DNA from: Smithella sp. | Lineage (GTDB): Bacteria; Desulfobacterota; Syntrophia; Syntrophales; Smithellaceae | Reading direction: 5' to 3' | DNA length: 58,162 bases | Assembly: GCA_017993615.1 (NCBI GenBank) | Contig: JAGOMJ010000011.1 | Coordinates: 1 to 58,162 of the forward strand | Notes under the pieces: generated by a model | What the model was told of the DNA's origin: nothing | Databases searched by the model: none | The model's input: the letters and a program-made list of their open reading frames with translations, nothing else | Made by a program: the position numbers and the translations under genes | In this document: piece by piece, positions 20,958 through 29,378 of the stretch | How the letters are laid out: each line of letters opens with the position of its first letter | Numbering within the stretch: the first letter of the stretch is position 1

Positions 20958-22595
20958 ATGACGACATCTCCAGACCGGAAAGAAACTGAACAAACCGGCG
21001 TCTCCTTCAATACAAAGCAGACCGAAACGACATCCGTGCGGCCGGAACTTGCCGAAATGTTTGCACGGCAGAAATTTGGTCTGGATCAAAACAGACCCGA
21101 GGCGGTGGAAAAACGCAGACAGAAAAATCAACGAACAGCCCGGGCAAATGTTGAGGATCTGTGCGACGCCGGAAGTTTTATGGAATACGGAGCGCTGGCG
21201 ATGGCGGCGCAGCGCGGCAGACGTTCCGAAGAGGATCTCATGGCCAGGACACCCGCCGATGGACTGATTGCGGGCATCGGAACAATCAACGGCACTTTCT
21301 TCAAAGAAGAAAAGGCCCGCTGCATGGTCATGGCCTACGATTACACGGTTCTGGCCGGCACGCAGGGATTTTTCAATCACAAAAAAATGGACCGGATGCT
21401 CAAACTTGCCCATGAACAGTCTGTCCCGCTGGTCCTGTTCGCGGAAGGCGGCGGCGGAAGGCCGGGAGACGTCGACGCCATCGGTGTGATGACCGCCGGC
21501 CTGGATTTGTCAACGTTTGCCATGTTCGCCGGACTCAGCGGCAAAGTGCCGCTTGTCGGGATCGTGTCCGGCCCCTGTTTTGCCGGGAATGCGGCGCTGC
21601 TGGGCTGCTGCGATGTCATCATTGCAGCGAAAAATTCCAATATCGGCATGGGCGGCCCGGTGATGATCGAAGGCGGCGGCCTAGGAAATTTTAAACCGGA
21701 ACAGATCGGGCCTATTGACGTCCAGACACAAAACGGCGTGGTAGATATCGAAGTTGCCGATGACGTGGAAGCCGTTGCCGCAGCAAAAAAATATCTCTCC
21801 TATTTTCAGGGGACAACGCCGTCATGGGAAGCGGCGGATCCGCTTCAGCTGCGCGACCTCATTCCCGAAAACAACAGGCGCGCCTACAACATGCGAACCG
21901 TCATTAAAGCGCTCGCCGATACGGATTCATATCTGGAACTGCGCCCTAAATTCGGCGCGGGGATGATTACGGGATTGATTCGCATCGAAGGGCGGCCTTT
22001 CGGATTGATCGCCAACAACTGCCTGCATATGGCCGGCGCCATTGAAGCCGAGGGCGCGGACAAAACGGTGCGGCTGATGCAGCTTTGTCAGGCACACGGC
22101 CTGCCGATTCTGTCTCTGTGTGACACTCCCGGATTTATGGTGGGTCCGGAAATCGAAAAACGCGCGCAGGTGCGCCATGTCTGCCGGATGTTTGTTGTCG
22201 GCTCGCACCTGACCGTTCCATATTTTACGGTTGTCCTGCGCCGCGGTTACGGCCTGGGCGCCATGGCGATGGCCAAAGGAGGTTTCCATGAATCCTTCTT
22301 CACGGCTTCCTGGCCCACGGGAGAATTCGGTGCCATGGGCATTGAGGGGGCCATCAAGGCGGGGTTTAAAAAAGAGCTGGCGGCCATCGAAGATCAGGAT
22401 CAGCGTGAGCAGCTATACCGGGACCTGGTGGCCCAACTTTACAAGCGGGGCAAGGCCGTCAACATCGCATCCTACCTGGAAATCGATGCCGTGATCGATC
22501 CGTCCGAGACCCGGAAGTGGATCATGCGGGGCATAAAATCCGCAGCAACGGGAAAAAAACAGAGCCCCGTTCATAATTATGTCGATCCCTGGTAA
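20958..22595 (+). CDS. Acyl-CoA carboxylase carboxyltransferase (PccB/MMCD-alpha family)
   Basis: The 545-residue protein has the two crotonase-like halves of biotin-dependent carboxyltransferases: an N-terminal half with DGLIAGIGTING, EGGGGRPGD and GPCFAGNAALLGCCD, and a C-terminal half with RPFGLIANN and LCDTPGFMVG. It transfers CO2 between carboxybiotin and an acyl-CoA. The substrate (propionyl-, acetyl-, methylcrotonyl- or glutaconyl-CoA) cannot be fixed by eye. No biotin carboxylase, biotin carrier or decarboxylase membrane subunit is adjacent, so partners must be encoded elsewhere. AGGGAG precedes the ATG. Confidence 0.85.
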   Translation: MTTSPDRKETEQTGVSFNTKQTETTSVRPELAEMFARQKFGLDQNRPEAVEKRRQKNQRTARANVEDLCDAGSFMEYGALAMAAQRGRRSEEDLMARTPADGLIAGIGTINGTFFKEEKARCMVMAYDYTVLAGTQGFFNHKKMDRMLKLAHEQSVPLVLFAEGGGGRPGDVDAIGVMTAGLDLSTFAMFAGLSGKVPLVGIVSGPCFAGNAALLGCCDVIIAAKNSNIGMGGPVMIEGGGLGNFKPEQIGPIDVQTQNGVVDIEVADDVEAVAAAKKYLSYFQGTTPSWEAADPLQLRDLIPENNRRAYNMRTVIKALADTDSYLELRPKFGAGMITGLIRIEGRPFGLIANNCLHMAGAIEAEGADKTVRLMQLCQAHGLPILSLCDTPGFMVGPEIEKRAQVRHVCRMFVVGSHLTVPYFTVVLRRGYGLGAMAMAKGGFHESFFTASWPTGEFGAMGIEGAIKAGFKKELAAIEDQDQREQLYRDLVAQLYKRGKAVNIASYLEIDAVIDPSETRKWIMRGIKSAATGKKQSPVHNYVDPW

Positions 22596-22617
22596 CCACA
22601 ACAAGGCGGATTTTACG

Positions 22618-23592
22618 ATGCAAATTCAAGAAATTTTTTCCATCTACAAAGAGGATCTTCAACAGGTCGAAAAATGCATCAGTGACAATGCAATCTCTGA
22701 AATAAAATTAATTCCCGAAGTGGCTCATCATCTGATCGACAGCGGCGGGAAGCGATTCCGTCCCCTTTTGCTGCTGATCGCGTCCCGGCTTTGCGGCTAT
22801 CACGGGGAACACCGTTATGCCATGGGGACCGTCATGGAATACATTCATACGGCAACACTCCTGCATGACGATGTCATTGATCAGGCCCTGATCAGACGCG
22901 GCAAAACGTCCGCCAATAAAGTATTCGGAAATTCCGTCAGTATTCTGGTGGGCGATTTTCTGTGTTTCAAGGCCTTTATGCTGATGAGCGAAATCGGCAA
23001 CAACAATATTTTTGAACTGGTCTCCCGGATGGGAAATATCATGTCGGAAGGCGAAGTTTTCCAACTGACCAAATGCGGGGATATCAACATGACGCGGGAT
23101 GACTATCTCAACATTATTGAAAAGAAGACGGCCGTTCTGATTTCGGCATCCTGCGCCGCGGGAGCGATCCTGGGCTCGGCATCCCCGGAAAAGATCGACG
23201 CCATGGCCCGGTTCGGGAAAAACGCGGGCATGGCTTTTCAAATTACGGACGATATTCTGGATTACGCGGCCAAAGGCCAGACATTCGGCAAATCGATCGG
23301 CAAGGATCTGGAGGAAGGCAAAATCACCCTGCCGCTCATCTTTGCCCTCAAACAAAGCACGGACGAAGAAAAAAACACCATGAAAGAGATCCTCTCCCGA
23401 AAAAAAAGCTCCAGGAAAGCCGCTCTGCAGGTCCGGACATTCATTGAAAAATACGAAGGGCTGGAATTGTCGCGGTATACGGCGGCGGGATACATCAAAG
23501 AGGCCAAACGGCAACTCGACGTTTTTGAAGATTGCGCCGAAAAAAAACACCTGATTACCGTTGCCGATTACATTCTCTCCCGAAACGTATAA
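22618..23592 (+). CDS. Long-chain trans-polyprenyl diphosphate synthase (IspB-like)
   Basis: From the ATG at 22618 the protein has 324 residues. GGKRFRP (43-49) and the first aspartate-rich motif DDVID (84-88) are followed by the second, TDDILD. Residues before the first motif are small (IHTATLLHDD), as in long-chain synthases making octaprenyl or similar side chains for quinones. I prefer 22618 to the in-frame ATG at 22579 because AAGGCGG precedes it and the upstream start would overlap the carboxyltransferase gene. It ends 3 nt from the stop of the convergent glycyl radical enzyme gene. Confidence 0.9.
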   Translation: MQIQEIFSIYKEDLQQVEKCISDNAISEIKLIPEVAHHLIDSGGKRFRPLLLLIASRLCGYHGEHRYAMGTVMEYIHTATLLHDDVIDQALIRRGKTSANKVFGNSVSILVGDFLCFKAFMLMSEIGNNNIFELVSRMGNIMSEGEVFQLTKCGDINMTRDDYLNIIEKKTAVLISASCAAGAILGSASPEKIDAMARFGKNAGMAFQITDDILDYAAKGQTFGKSIGKDLEEGKITLPLIFALKQSTDEEKNTMKEILSRKKSSRKAALQVRTFIEKYEGLELSRYTAAGYIKEAKRQLDVFEDCAEKKHLITVADYILSRNV

Positions 23593-23595
23593 ACT

Positions 23596-26500
23596 CTATA
23601 TTTTATATTCAGCGCGCCGAATGACTTCCAGCTGCAAATCACGCTGCAACCTTGTGAAATAGGCCACGAACCCGGAAATTCTGACCATCAAATCGCTGTA
23701 ATATTCCGGATGGGCCATCGCATCTTTCAGCGTCTCCGTGGAAATCACATTGAACTGCGTCTGCATGCCTCCCATCCTGAAATACGTATCCGCGTAATTG
23801 GCCATGATTTCAATAATCCTTTCATGACTGTCCGAGGAAGCGGGAACAATTTTGACATTGAAGGCGATGTTATTATCCAGCGTTTCGGGTTTCAATTTCG
23901 CCACGTCCCGGAGATTATCCAGCAGATTCGGCGATGCCGTCGGATGCGGTGTGAGTCCGGGGGTAAAAGGTTCGCCGGCCAACCGGCCCGACGGGGAGGC
24001 TCCCGTGACGCGCCCGTAAACCGTATGATTGGCCATGGACCACCAACCGGTCGCGTGGGGTCCTCCTCGATAATTTTGGTGAGAGGCAAAATAATCATGC
24101 ACCAATGACGTCACCCGGTTGGCCATTGTTACGGATTCTTCATTGCCCGAACCGAAACGCGGCACTCTGGTTTTAATCATGGCATGCAACCGGGGGTGAT
24201 GGGCGAAATTGCTGTCAATCGCCTCTTTAAGTTCGGCAAACGTGATTTTTTTCTCATCATAGACCAGTGTTTTGATCGCCATCAGAGAATCGACAACATC
24301 CGCCATTCCGATAACGGATACGCCGGACGAATTATATCTGGCTCCGCCCCGGGTTACCCCTCTGCCGCTTTCAATACACCCTTCGGTCATGCTGGAAATC
24401 AGCGGCGCGGGCTGATGCTGTTGATAGATCTCGCCCAATTGGTTATTGCCGATAATGGATTGCTCGCACAGAAATTCACACTGTTCTTTGAACGCTTTCC
24501 AGAAATCGTCAAAGGTCTCGAAATCGCCCTGCCCGATGATGCCTGTGTCCGGACCAAGTTTCCAGTTCATCAGGGGATGTTTTCCGTTATTCAGCGCCAT
24601 TTCCAGTACGGCGACCAGATTGAATTCTATGCTGGACGTGGCGCTGCAGTGCTTGCCGGGAATGCCCGGTTCCACGCAGCCGTTGACAACCCAATCCCTC
24701 ACATCCTCAACGGCCCAGCCGCGCGCCGTCAAGGATTCCATGACGGCGTCATCGCCGTGGATGCAGGGCGTCGCGCCTGTGATGTAATTCACATCGCAAA
24801 CCCTTTTCAGATAGGCAAAACTGTTTTTATCCGGTTTATACCGGGCATGAACATTGGGATTATTCAACGAAAGCAATTCCGTCACCTTGAGAAGGATATA
24901 TGTCATGTCGTTGACCGCATCTTCCCCCTGAGGCGTCACGCCTCCCAGCGTGATCGTGCCGTTGGGCGACGAGCCGCCGTTCTGCCAGTTGCCGATATCC
25001 GGAGCAAGAATCTGATGACTGGATTCTATAAAGTAAAGACATCCGAGAATATCGATCACCTGTTTGATGTATGCTTCCCGTTTTTGCGGGGTGGTGAGTT
25101 TATGCATATCCGATTCAAAATACGGCTGAAGAATCTGATCCAGCCTTCCGTACATGGGACCGTCGTCGGTGCTTTCCATCCCCAGACAAAGGTGCATCAG
25201 AATAATATTCTGAACGGCCTCATGAAGCGTTTCAGATGGACTTTCCGGAATTTTGAGCAGCATCCGATGCATGGTTTCCAATTCGGCTTTACGCTGCGGG
25301 TTCGTTGCCGTTTTGGACTCTTCAAGCGCCTGACGGGCAAGATTGCGGGCGTAGGCGTTGACACCCTCCAGACTGATGATCATCGCCTTTAACGTATTTT
25401 TCTTTTCATCGTCGGCATGAGCATCTCTGGCAAGTTCTTCTTCTATCTTTCTGATCAACCCTCCGGTCCCCAGCTTGATAAGCGCTTCGTGTCCCGGGGG
25501 CACTTCCGACATGGATATCGTTTTCCAATAATAAACGGAAAAAAACCTGTCATGAATCTGAACGGGCAGACCGCCGTTTGTCCGGCTTCTCCACAATTCG
25601 TGAATATTTCTTTTTGCCCAATAGGGAAATACGTGCCTGTGCAGAATATGAATGGATTCCTCGCTGATCTCATACGGCATGAGCTCCCTTTTTGAAAAGG
25701 ACCGCAGCTCACCCCAGCTGTAACAGCCGATGGAGAAAGGATGTCCGACGCAGGTGGAAACGGGAGATGTGGTGTACGTTCCGGCCAGCAGATCGTTTGT
25801 CCTGATCACCGGCGTTCTGTTCTCCAGGATATACTTCAGGCTTTCCGCTTTACGCAGGTTGGGATCCCAGGGTTTGCCGTCCTTATCCACCTCGTATCCG
25901 TTGGCCAGATGGAAATCTGTGATCAGTTTTCCGTATTCGTGACAGACCACCGCTTCCTTTTTTTTACCGAAATACTCGGCGCGAAATTGTTCCAGCCTCG
26001 GAAAATCCTCCAGCCCTAAGCCGGCCAGATGCGGGTCCTCCAGATATTTGACACCGGGATCAACTTTTCCGCCCGCTACGCGGCTGATTTTTCTTCTCTG
26101 ACGTTCCTGCCTGCAGCAATCGGTGTCGGCCACATCCCGGCCGACGGATTTGTTTGCCTTTCTATGTTCTTCAATCTGTCGGTCCACGGCTTTCTGCTGT
26201 CCCTTGTCAAAAACAAGCGCCATCAGATAATTGAACAGGGAGGCGAGCATGATGTTGCCTTGTGTTCGAATGGTGCCGATCAGCATCATTTTATACATTT
26301 CATCGGGGGTTGCATCGGTCATATCCAGAAGATGATCAGAGGTTTTAAAGATAATGACCGTTTCCACATTTTCAGGAATTGTCTTCAGCACACGGACCAC
26401 GCCATCCTGAAACACGATCGCCGCTTCGATGGCGCTGTCCTCCGATCTCATCCCCAGAGAAAGGTTGATCCAGCCCTGCGTGCCTTTCAACTCCTCGAGC

Positions 26501-26691
26501 AGCGCTTCGGAAGTATTGAATCGGCCGGCGATAAATTGCAGAAACCCTTCCAGAAGCAACTGATGCTTGCGCAGCACTTTACCGATGCCGACCTTTGATG
26601 CGCTTACCGCCAGACCCCAATAGCCTGATCGCCGATTTTGATCTGAACTGTTTTCCAGCGTGTTTTGCATGGCTTTTTTCTTGCCTGACAT
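23596..26691 (-). CDS. Glycyl radical enzyme with N-terminal SCP2 sterol-carrier-like domain
   Basis: A single 1031-residue frame. Residues about 40-165 look like an SCP2 lipid-binding domain (INLSLGMRSEDSAIEAAIVFQDG, then a GTIRTQGN strand and terminal helix). A charged linker (165-205) follows. Residues about 215-1031 are a glycyl radical enzyme: thiyl cysteine C672 and base E674 in NGCVEPG (670-676), and radical glycine G1007 in RISGF, followed by RLQRDLQLEVIRR. The GCxE signature places it with dehydratase, C-N/C-S lyase or decarboxylase members, not with PFL (tandem Cys) or, by my recollection of their motif, alkyl/benzylsuccinate synthases. No glycyl radical activase gene is nearby. The lipid domain suggests a hydrophobic substrate (inference). 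Upstream is a promoter covered by a palindrome; AAGGG abuts the first ATG, and M8 (26670) is an alternative start. Confidence 0.88.
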   Translation of the reverse strand: MSGKKKAMQNTLENSSDQNRRSGYWGLAVSASKVGIGKVLRKHQLLLEGFLQFIAGRFNTSEALLEELKGTQGWINLSLGMRSEDSAIEAAIVFQDGVVRVLKTIPENVETVIIFKTSDHLLDMTDATPDEMYKMMLIGTIRTQGNIMLASLFNYLMALVFDKGQQKAVDRQIEEHRKANKSVGRDVADTDCCRQERQRRKISRVAGGKVDPGVKYLEDPHLAGLGLEDFPRLEQFRAEYFGKKKEAVVCHEYGKLITDFHLANGYEVDKDGKPWDPNLRKAESLKYILENRTPVIRTNDLLAGTYTTSPVSTCVGHPFSIGCYSWGELRSFSKRELMPYEISEESIHILHRHVFPYWAKRNIHELWRSRTNGGLPVQIHDRFFSVYYWKTISMSEVPPGHEALIKLGTGGLIRKIEEELARDAHADDEKKNTLKAMIISLEGVNAYARNLARQALEESKTATNPQRKAELETMHRMLLKIPESPSETLHEAVQNIILMHLCLGMESTDDGPMYGRLDQILQPYFESDMHKLTTPQKREAYIKQVIDILGCLYFIESSHQILAPDIGNWQNGGSSPNGTITLGGVTPQGEDAVNDMTYILLKVTELLSLNNPNVHARYKPDKNSFAYLKRVCDVNYITGATPCIHGDDAVMESLTARGWAVEDVRDWVVNGCVEPGIPGKHCSATSSIEFNLVAVLEMALNNGKHPLMNWKLGPDTGIIGQGDFETFDDFWKAFKEQCEFLCEQSIIGNNQLGEIYQQHQPAPLISSMTEGCIESGRGVTRGGARYNSSGVSVIGMADVVDSLMAIKTLVYDEKKITFAELKEAIDSNFAHHPRLHAMIKTRVPRFGSGNEESVTMANRVTSLVHDYFASHQNYRGGPHATGWWSMANHTVYGRVTGASPSGRLAGEPFTPGLTPHPTASPNLLDNLRDVAKLKPETLDNNIAFNVKIVPASSDSHERIIEIMANYADTYFRMGGMQTQFNVISTETLKDAMAHPEYYSDLMVRISGFVAYFTRLQRDLQLEVIRRAEYKI

Positions 26692-26718: not shown

Positions 26719-26750
26719 TTAAATTTAACGCTATTAAATTTAAAAGTCAA
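26719..26750 (-). promoter_or_regulatory. Promoter of the glycyl radical enzyme gene with overlapping TetR-type palindromic operator
   Basis: On the minus strand: -35 TTGACT (26750-26745), a 17-nt spacer, and -10 TAAATT (26727-26722). A perfect palindrome spans 26719-26743: TTAAATTTAA, central 5 bases, TTAAATTTAA. Each arm is itself self-complementary. It covers most of the spacer and all of the -10 box, so a bound dimer would block RNA polymerase. A TetR gene lies just upstream, the natural candidate ligand-controlled repressor. Predicted leader is about 24 nt. Confidence 0.65.
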
Positions 26751-26893: not shown

Positions 26894-27562
26894 TCACCGG
26901 TATTTCCTCCTGATGTAGGCAGTCAGTAAATCATCGACGATACGATGCATTGCACGTTCGGGATTTTTAACGATCACCTTTAAAATACCGCTGTTGTAAA
27001 GAGAGACAATGCCATGCAGTTCGCTAAAGGTCCTGATAAAATAAAACTCCACGTCCCGGACATCCGGCTCAGAAGATGAGGACAGAACGTTCTTGCCGAT
27101 ACTCATGACCAGATTAAGATTTCTCACCGAGCTTTCATATTCCTCGCGGGCAAGAGATTCTTCGGATGTTCCATAATAGTCGGATACCTGAGGCACCCGG
27201 CGATTAAACATGATGTCGTAATAATTCGGATATTTTTTAGCAAACGTCAAAAATGTTTTGATTATTTTTTTCAGTTTGGCCATCGGCTCCGCTTCTTTCC
27301 GGACAGCCTTCGAAAGCATGGCATATAACAACTCAAATGTTTTTTTATGGATTGCGATGATCAGTTGATCTTTGTTTCTGAAATAATTGTAGAGGTTGGC
27401 CGCCGTCATATTGGTTCGTCTGCCCAGTTGGTACATGGAAAGCTTCTCAAATCCTTCTTCTCTCAGAATCGTCAGGGCTTCTTCGAGAATGGCGTTTCGT
27501 ACCTCTTCTATTTCTTTTTCGCTGCGTGTGATTTTGGACAATGCAATTCCCGCTCTAGACAA
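26894..27562 (-). CDS. TetR/AcrR family transcriptional regulator
   Basis: The 222-residue protein has an N-terminal TetR helix-turn-helix (about residues 20-80: ILEEALTILREEGFEKLSMY, then RRTNMTAANLYNYFRNKDQL). An all-helical ligand-binding domain follows, resembling the WHG-type C-terminal domain (YPNYYDIMFNRRVP). It overlaps the radical SAM gene by 8 nt and sits 202 nt upstream of the glycyl radical enzyme gene. The palindrome in that enzyme's promoter is a plausible target. The inducing ligand is unknown; an acyl-CoA or hydrophobic compound would fit the neighbourhood. Confidence 0.88.
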   Translation of the reverse strand: MSRAGIALSKITRSEKEIEEVRNAILEEALTILREEGFEKLSMYQLGRRTNMTAANLYNYFRNKDQLIIAIHKKTFELLYAMLSKAVRKEAEPMAKLKKIIKTFLTFAKKYPNYYDIMFNRRVPQVSDYYGTSEESLAREEYESSVRNLNLVMSIGKNVLSSSSEPDVRDVEFYFIRTFSELHGIVSLYNSGILKVIVKNPERAMHRIVDDLLTAYIRRKYR

Positions 27563-29378
27563 AATTCTCCACGTATTTTTTGAACATCTTCCTCACGGTT
27601 GGATTTTTTTCCCATTGATATAATCTTTCAAATGTTCCCGGAAGCGAACTTGTGGAATACGCAAGCCCCTTGTACAGCTCAAAGTAGGCACTCGCCCCCA
27701 GTTGAAATCCAATGCCGGCAAAAGCATCCACCATGCGGTCTTTGAAGCTTTGCGCCCCTTTTGACGAATGGACACTCCAGGATTTCTTCGCCATACCAAA
27801 AGCAATATGCAAAGCGCTGATGTAGGATCCTATTTTTTCCATGGTGTCGTACAGCATGTAAAAAGTCACCAGCGGACTGTTGAACAGGGCATCCGGTATC
27901 TTTCGGTTGCTCTCCGTCAAATCGGCAATGGTTAACGAACAGAAATAATCCATTGAACCGGGATTGCCGTAGATCAGCTCATGCGTCTCCAGGCCTTTAA
28001 GAAAATCAAGCGAGCCCGGCAGATTGCTCAGGCAGGTCGGCTGAATGCCGATTTTATTCTTCTTGCAGAATTCAACAATTTTCCTGCCGGAATGATCCTC
28101 TAAAGAATGAAAATAATCGTAGGGCATTCCGAACATGAACGCACCATGAACGGAAATACCGTGATCCTGAATTTTTTTAATTCGCGATGCGTAATACTCT
28201 TCGACGGATATTTTCTCTTTTTTGATTTTGGCTACGATATTCTTGCCGACATACTCCAGATTCCTGATATCCAGCGATTCCAATCCGATAAAGAAATGCG
28301 ATGCGCCGGAAAGCCTCAGTTTTTGAAGGAGCTTGTCACTATCGGCGACCTCAATGCTGATTTGCGCCGCGTAATTGATCCGTAAAGGACTTTCGATCAT
28401 TTTGTCCAGAACATCGTGCAGCTTTTTCCCCCCGAACAAAAGGTTATCGGGCGAGATGAAATAGAACCGGTTCTTAAACGTGACACCTTTCTTCTGCTTA
28501 TCCAGCAGTTCACAGGTAAAATCCTCGGGTGAACGAGATGTGAACTTTCTTCGCTCTTCCGGGAACGAAGATATGGAACAGAAACTGCAGGAAAACGGAC
28601 AGCCTAAAAAGGGAGTCGTCACGTTCGTTTCAATGATTCGTGAAAGGAGCGGGCCGATGACGGGAAATTTATTAATAAAGTATGGTTTGATTTTAGGTAA
28701 TTCGATGACCCGGTCACATCCCCAGACGCCATCCTCAATCGGGATATTTCCGTGATACTCTTTTTTCAGATTCGAACGCGCAAGATCCGACATAACGTTT
28801 TTAATGGTCGGCAAATCGCCGGCGCCGATAACCTGCGTAACGATTTGGGGATGCGGCAGATACTTTCTCAGATACATGTCCACATCATTAAAGCTGGTTG
28901 AAACATGGATGCCGCCGATGACGACCGGTATGTTGACTTTGTTCAAAATCAGAATCACGGCACAAGCGGTGGGAAACGTTGAACTGATCAGAGACATGAA
29001 GACTGCCACCGGTTTTTGTTTTTCTTCCGCAATGATCTGTCCGATCGTTTTCCGGGTATCATCGGCGATGATGACTCTTGCGTCTTGATCCGCCCGGCAA
29101 ATCTGATTGGCAATATAGTAGGCTTTATAGGGCTCGATGGCCATCTGCTCGAGCATCCCTTTCCGGAGCAGGTTGGTATTGAAGCTCAGGAATTCGGTAT
29201 AATTCGTTTCATTGCACGCTTCCAGCTTTCTGCCCGTCAGGTATTCAACCGTATCTTCAACGGTGAAGCCCGCCACGCCTATTTTTCCCATCAGATCCAC
29301 GGTCGTGGGATCGTACATAATATAATATTTTTTCAAATTCTTTTTTGTGTCACGATTTTCAGCGAATGATTTTGTCAT
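27555..29378 (-). CDS. B12-binding-domain radical SAM protein, unknown function
   Basis: The 607-residue protein has a cobalamin-binding-like Rossmann region (about 85-205; PVVIGGIHVSTS at 151-162 is typical, but no DxHxxG histidine motif is seen). The radical SAM core carries C260, C264 and C267 in CPFSCSFC, and a helical C-terminal extension of about 150 residues follows. Relatives include methylases and ring-modifying enzymes acting on unactivated carbons (HpnP/HpnR, BchE classes). It is not a glycyl radical activase: those are about 250-350 residues with a different cysteine arrangement. It is coupled to the TetR gene by an 8-nt overlap and follows the HD-GYP gene by 51 nt. Substrate unknown. 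Confidence 0.85.
   Translation of the reverse strand: MTKSFAENRDTKKNLKKYYIMYDPTTVDLMGKIGVAGFTVEDTVEYLTGRKLEACNETNYTEFLSFNTNLLRKGMLEQMAIEPYKAYYIANQICRADQDARVIIADDTRKTIGQIIAEEKQKPVAVFMSLISSTFPTACAVILILNKVNIPVVIGGIHVSTSFNDVDMYLRKYLPHPQIVTQVIGAGDLPTIKNVMSDLARSNLKKEYHGNIPIEDGVWGCDRVIELPKIKPYFINKFPVIGPLLSRIIETNVTTPFLGCPFSCSFCSISSFPEERRKFTSRSPEDFTCELLDKQKKGVTFKNRFYFISPDNLLFGGKKLHDVLDKMIESPLRINYAAQISIEVADSDKLLQKLRLSGASHFFIGLESLDIRNLEYVGKNIVAKIKKEKISVEEYYASRIKKIQDHGISVHGAFMFGMPYDYFHSLEDHSGRKIVEFCKKNKIGIQPTCLSNLPGSLDFLKGLETHELIYGNPGSMDYFCSLTIADLTESNRKIPDALFNSPLVTFYMLYDTMEKIGSYISALHIAFGMAKKSWSVHSSKGAQSFKDRMVDAFAGIGFQLGASAYFELYKGLAYSTSSLPGTFERLYQWEKNPTVRKMFKKYVENFV

Follow-up and report, generated by a model that had tools for sequence, protein, structure and literature searches.

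A widespread, apparently undescribed family of glycyl radical enzymes carries an SCP2 domain and points to radical chemistry on hydrophobic molecules

We find that a 1031-residue protein encoded on a 58,162-nucleotide stretch of Smithella sp. DNA (GenBank JAGOMJ010000011.1, positions 1-58,162, referred to here as the window) belongs to a real, widespread and apparently undescribed subfamily of glycyl radical enzymes (GREs) in which the catalytic barrel is preceded by an SCP2 domain. GREs are oxygen-sensitive, and the eliminase-type members characterised so far work on small polar substrates such as choline, diols, hydroxyproline and sulfonates. The present family, found in anaerobic bacteria, probably cleaves a bond in a hydrophobic molecule and would thereby extend to greasy substrates a chemistry previously seen just with small, water-soluble compounds.

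Positions 23596-26691 are interrupted by stop codons on the plus strand and open for 1031 codons on the minus strand. The features of this gene are as follows.

23596..26691, minus strand: SCP2-fused GRE, 1031 residues (open frame, Pfam, AF2 model)
26197..26580, minus strand: SCP2 domain, residues 38-165 (Pfam in relatives, predicted fold, structure matches)
24013..25998, minus strand: PFL-like barrel domain, residues 232-893 (Pfam, E 1e-148)
23653..23964, minus strand: Gly_radical domain, residues 910-1013 (Pfam, E 6e-21)
23671-23673, minus strand: G1007 within the RISGF motif (Pfam and an alignment of 60 sequences)
24670..24678, minus strand: thiyl-radical Cys672 and acid/base Glu674 of the GCVE motif (the same in 60 of 60 sequences)
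25504..25506, minus strand: E396, at the alignment position of His164 in glycerol dehydratase

The PFL-like barrel, the Gly_radical domain, the RxSG loop and the active-site cysteine of the GRE superfamily are present in this protein. The AF2 model has a mean pLDDT of 90.6 and a pTM of 0.91, with pLDDT below 50 only at residues 1-38. A preliminary description of this DNA, which gave no strand, had read the frame as an SCP2-like domain, at about residues 40-165, joined to a complete GRE with C672, E674 and G1007; the open frame, the Pfam matches, the alignment of 60 relatives and the fold all bear this out.

Taken alone, the window N-terminus gave no secure SCP2 match with either Pfam or phmmer (PF02036, 15.2-15.9 bits against a curated cut-off of 21.3), and we therefore turned to relatives and to predicted folds. 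A homologue from the same genus (L057) scores 24.4 bits, over the cut-off, and SCP2 is matched at E<=0.1 in 32 of 58 aligned family N-termini; the next Pfam family, Alkyl_sulf_C, which is the alkylsulfatase counterpart of the SCP2 domain, appears in two of the 58, and all other listed families appear once each. When the N-terminal domain was predicted separately, Foldseek matched it to SCP2 structures (E 8e-6), and structural comparison placed it closest to the C-terminal SCP2-like domain of the Pisa1 alkylsulfatase (VIA Z 13.5, the top match) and to the SCP2 domain of human MFE-2 (VIA Z 13.0). The model comprises a helix at residues 37-60, five strands at 77-145 and a long helix at 147-184 that begins inside the domain, in agreement with the boundaries first proposed. 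On the strength of the relatives and the predicted fold, we consider the assignment of this domain as SCP2 secure.

Proteins of this kind were found in many of 60 related genomes searched, and 84,980 species genomes, when scanned, yielded 250 relatives. We kept 80 of these, in each of which the match starts at residue 63 or earlier and so spans the N-terminal domain entirely or in large part; a GRE frame was called in 78 of the 80 loci, about 980-1070 residues long bar one frameshifted locus. The fusion recurs in essentially every full-length relative, which excludes a one-off event or an assembly error as its source. About 80 further SCP2-GREs, from named genomes, span seven or more phyla. 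Their hosts are mostly Thermodesulfobacteriota, with members also in Spirochaetota, Chloroflexota, Actinomycetota, Bacillota, Planctomycetota, Pseudomonadota (Fangia hongkongensis DSM 21703) and others; phylum counts are approximate, since some of the automatic 'Myxococcota' labels stem from record titles that say Deltaproteobacteria. In plasmid records, no full-length relative was found.

When the tree is built from the GRE portion only, a single branch (SH-aLRT 100) divides the 33 SCP2-GREs sampled, as one clade, from 13 other GREs, with L029 and L030 as the nearest GREs lacking the domain; the tree is confined to GREs that are not biochemically characterised, and separation from the known families comes from curated HMM scores. 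More distant SCP2-GREs (38-39% identity) occur in same-genus genomes at L061 8721-11807 and L067 615-3683, where the N-termini align with the family and lack a Pfam SCP2 match. At L148 6353-16321, in a Desulfobacterium metagenome-assembled genome, three SCP2-GRE genes lie in tandem. On the contig of L074, the SCP2 and GRE parts occupy two overlapping frames (L056 8346-8939 and 8815-11403) that break at the inter-domain linker, reflecting a frameshift, a sequencing error or a true fission.

The genes around family members tend to recur. We compared 85 loci: 57 of them have an activase homologue near the GRE, 39 a TetR_C_33 regulator, 14 a short-chain dehydrogenase/reductase (SDR), 11 an NAD-epimerase/3beta-HSD-like protein (closest to the HpnA and OleD models, though scoring far under both cut-offs) and seven an aldehyde:ferredoxin oxidoreductase; an aldehyde dehydrogenase adjoins the GRE at a single locus. 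The usual cassette runs TetR regulator, GRE, activase and then often SDR/epimerase oxidoreductases, and at a single Smithella locus a hydroxyacyl-CoA dehydrogenase/hydratase and a thiolase lie upstream. These partners are of carbonyl and acyl type; when the other operon neighbours were pooled and scanned with Pfam, no one partner stood out.

These neighbours bear on the leading alternative, in which SCP2 would be a docking, dimerisation or membrane-anchoring module and the GRE substrate itself would not be lipid-bound. SCP2 domains can serve in complex assembly too. The domain is less conserved than the protein as a whole (mean column identity 46% versus 56%), and the SCP2-like domains of Eis acetyltransferases, for which we know of no carrier role, also match the predicted domain (Z about 7). 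Two observations speak against a docking module: all full-length relatives inspected have kept SCP2, whichever their phylum, and several recurrent adjacent genes come from oxidoreductase families that include lipid- and carbonyl-acting enzymes; we judge such a module unlikely, if the strongest of the alternatives, and favour a domain that would hold the substrate.

The immediate surroundings of the window gene are those of its own Smithella subclade (window, L073, L074 and L082), in which the GRE has no activase, SDR or epimerase gene next to it, and the neighbours encode a B12-binding radical SAM protein and, except in L074, where it was not called, a TetR protein. In the window these are:

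26719..26743, no strand: perfect inverted repeat TTAAATTTAA-5-TTAAATTTAA, candidate TetR operator (three-locus comparison)
26894..27562, minus strand: TetR regulator (TetR_N and TetR_C_33, Pfam)
27555..29378, minus strand: B12-binding radical SAM protein (Pfam and curated profiles), overlapping the TetR gene by 8 bases

The radical SAM protein is found with the GRE in only five loci, chiefly of the Smithella clade, and a sequence search of the PDB found no relative of the window copy (27555-29378). On the other side, carboxyltransferase-type and polyprenyl diphosphate synthase genes (20958-23592) run convergently with the GRE, an arrangement conserved only in four Smithella-clade loci. Between the TetR gene and the GRE lies the element TTAAATTTAATAGCGTTAAATTTAA. 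A promoter scan placed a promoter-like site at 26722-26750 on the minus strand, overlapping the palindrome. The palindrome arms and a TTGAC(T/A) box are unchanged in the window, L073 and L082, and the remaining spacer has diverged; the palindrome occurs once in the 2.52-Mb genome, with none expected in shuffled sequence. Judging from these sequence comparisons, the palindrome is likely the operator of the adjacent TetR protein.

Two activases score over cut-off in the host genome. One, on contig C15, follows a second SCP2-GRE, a paralogue with a histidine at the position of E396, which is itself recovered in two halves on contigs C85 and C15 with an exact 127-base end overlap. The other forms the N-terminus of a different GRE, in a 1101-residue frame on the minus strand of contig C40 (L004 8608-11913; TIGR02494, 220 bits, over cut-off). 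Because one activase accompanies the paralogue and the other is fused to another GRE, activation of the window GRE in trans by the C15 protein is likely. Fusion of a GRE to its own activase is unusual; C40-type frames of about 1064-1127 residues occur in at least ten same-genus genomes. B12-binding radical SAM proteins of a similar kind lie near both this fused activase-GRE (L004 15932-17746) and the window GRE.

Inspection of the active site revealed that G671-C672-V673-E674, R1004, S1006 and G1007 are unchanged in all 60 aligned sequences, and that the surrounding residues define two classes. The first (46 of 60) has H396, H684, F571 and N1009 together. The second (14 of 60), to which the window gene belongs, lacks H684 and carries E (in nine), Q, P or A at position 396; D509, D510, P512 and N571 further mark this class. 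Four residues of glycerol dehydratase, S282, D447, Y339 and H164, we take to be substrate-site residues; by alignment, the first three correspond to G511, S686 and N577 of the window GRE and the fourth to E396, so that the glycerol/propanediol dehydratase residue set is incomplete, with GCVE kept. The residues that hold the diol are thus largely replaced and the substrate geometry must differ; an invariant GCVE alongside changes at the S282, Y339 and D447 positions indicates an eliminase-type site with a remodelled pocket.

The acid at position 396 raises the idea of a C-N lyase, in which at least the window class would split off the amine of an amino alcohol or quaternary ammonium compound with a long chain, as a lipid version of the choline TMA-lyase CutC. 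An acid occupies the H164 position in most of this class, at a site that we take, from the alignment, to be D216 in CutC, and the class is also distinct at D509/D510/P512 and N571. Alignment positions in the loops are uncertain, however, other class members carry Q, P or A at 396, and the protein falls well short of the CutC equivalog cut-off (371 of 1050 bits); we consider this reading improbable and prefer loss of a hydroxyl group.

Curated profiles place the enzyme outside the known families. Its best PDB sequence match is glycerol dehydratase, and the closest solved folds to the barrel are 1r8w (glycerol dehydratase), 5i2g (propanediol dehydratase) and CutC, with TM by target of 0.92-0.94. 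The window protein stays far below the curated cut-offs: PFL2-3 (TIGR01774) scores 423.9 bits against a curated subfamily cut-off of 678.2, the CutC equivalog 370.6 against 1050, and the HypD (trans-4-hydroxyproline dehydratase) equivalog 400.8 against 1100. Best equivalog scores amount to about 20-36% of the cut-offs, which excludes membership in known GRE equivalogs. The absence of BMC shell genes from the host genome likewise excludes a microcompartment-borne propanediol or choline enzyme. The preliminary description would have fallen had the N-terminus lacked an SCP2 fold or had the enzyme joined a family acting on small substrates, and neither is the case; it also knew of no characterised member with this architecture, which our searches support. 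PDB sequence searches returned no such member; a literature search, with most subscription journals outside its coverage, found no published GRE joined to an SCP2 or sterol carrier domain, its one match being an unrelated paper on a fungal genome, and nothing linking GREs to long-chain substrates, diol dehydratase and lipid. A limonene GRE from the literature is a succinate synthase of another branch.

The same scores weigh on a decarboxylase of arylacetate type acting on a hydrophobic acid. 4-Hydroxyphenylacetate and indoleacetate decarboxylases likewise use Cys-x-Glu, and their models match the window protein at 229-260 bits; these values fall far under those of HypD (401), CutC (371) and PFL2-3 (424) and cover only part of the profile, making a decarboxylase very improbable. 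Least plausible is fumarate addition to a hydrocarbon by an alkylsuccinate synthase-like enzyme, as known from Smithella: eliminases have a glutamate after the radical cysteine and succinate synthases do not, and here it is invariant two residues on (60 of 60), MasD and BssA come almost last among the PDB profile matches, and BssB/C-type small subunits were not recognised among annotated neighbours (ORFs of at least 90 residues, a threshold that could miss short ones), even though the host clade includes alkane-degrading Smithella (PMC5606693).

Our favoured model, which we hold with about as much doubt as confidence, is that the SCP2-GRE is a GCxE-type eliminase, repressed by TetR and activated in trans, that would turn a hydroxylated, hydrophobic substrate, bound in the SCP2 domain of the same protein, into a carbonyl. 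An activase, the nearest candidate here being the C15 protein beside the paralogue, would install a radical on G1007; the radical would pass to C672, which would abstract hydrogen from the hydroxyl-bearing substrate carbon, with E674 and residue 396 aiding proton transfer. The adjacent substituent, OH or with lower probability an amine or some other leaving group, would then depart to leave an aldehyde or ketone. The reaction type would be that of diol dehydratase, CutC and IslA, whose reactions yield aldehydes by spin-centre shift (PMC6386719). The SCP2 domain would hold the alkyl or polycyclic part and present the polar head to the radical site. The carbonyl might then be reduced or oxidised by the SDR, NAD-epimerase-like protein, aldehyde dehydrogenase or aldehyde:ferredoxin oxidoreductase encoded beside some members, and the product would probably enter beta-oxidation in some hosts. 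The TetR protein may keep the GRE repressed as long as the substrate, or a lipid related to it, is missing.

That GREs with an integral lipid-carrier domain form a clade, occur in at least seven phyla of anaerobes and are usually encoded beside an activase and a regulator suggests that radical elimination extends to hydrophobic molecules. Such enzymes could supply a missing step in anaerobic lipid degradation or editing in sediments and methanogenic digesters. More tentatively, the lipid-domain GREs of these phyla might act on membrane-type or long-chain lipids themselves, by radical elimination at a C-O (or C-N) bond, with the two active-site classes corresponding to two substrates; if true, direct lipid elimination would be an unrecognised anaerobic route for lipid breakdown or remodelling. 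The family is open to experiment: the genes are intact and mostly have an activase beside them, and F. hongkongensis DSM 21703, the host of one member, is a culture-collection strain.

Among known systems, the B12-independent glycerol and 1,2-propanediol dehydratases share with the SCP2-GREs the barrel fold, GCxE, the glycyl-radical motif and, in most family loci, a nearby activase; the window GRE differs from them by its SCP2 domain and by replacement of the S282, D447 and Y339 equivalents, at about 27-28% identity in the structure alignment. CutC shares the fold, the GCVEP motif and, in most of the window class, an acid at the D216 position, whereas the window GRE carries an SCP2 domain and its host genome lacks microcompartment genes. 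The L029 and L030 GREs, from a sister branch in the same order, have 35% identity, GCVE and an SHT motif in common with the family; they lack the SCP2 domain, and they too fall under every curated cut-off. The alkylsulfatases SdsA1, SdsAP and Pisa1 offer an architectural precedent, in that each carries its own SCP-2-like domain on an enzyme for long-chain alkyl substrates (PMC5426288). Their catalytic domain is unrelated, however, and their SCP2 domain is C-terminal; theirs is an enzyme of hydrolysis, whereas the window protein would join such a domain to radical chemistry.
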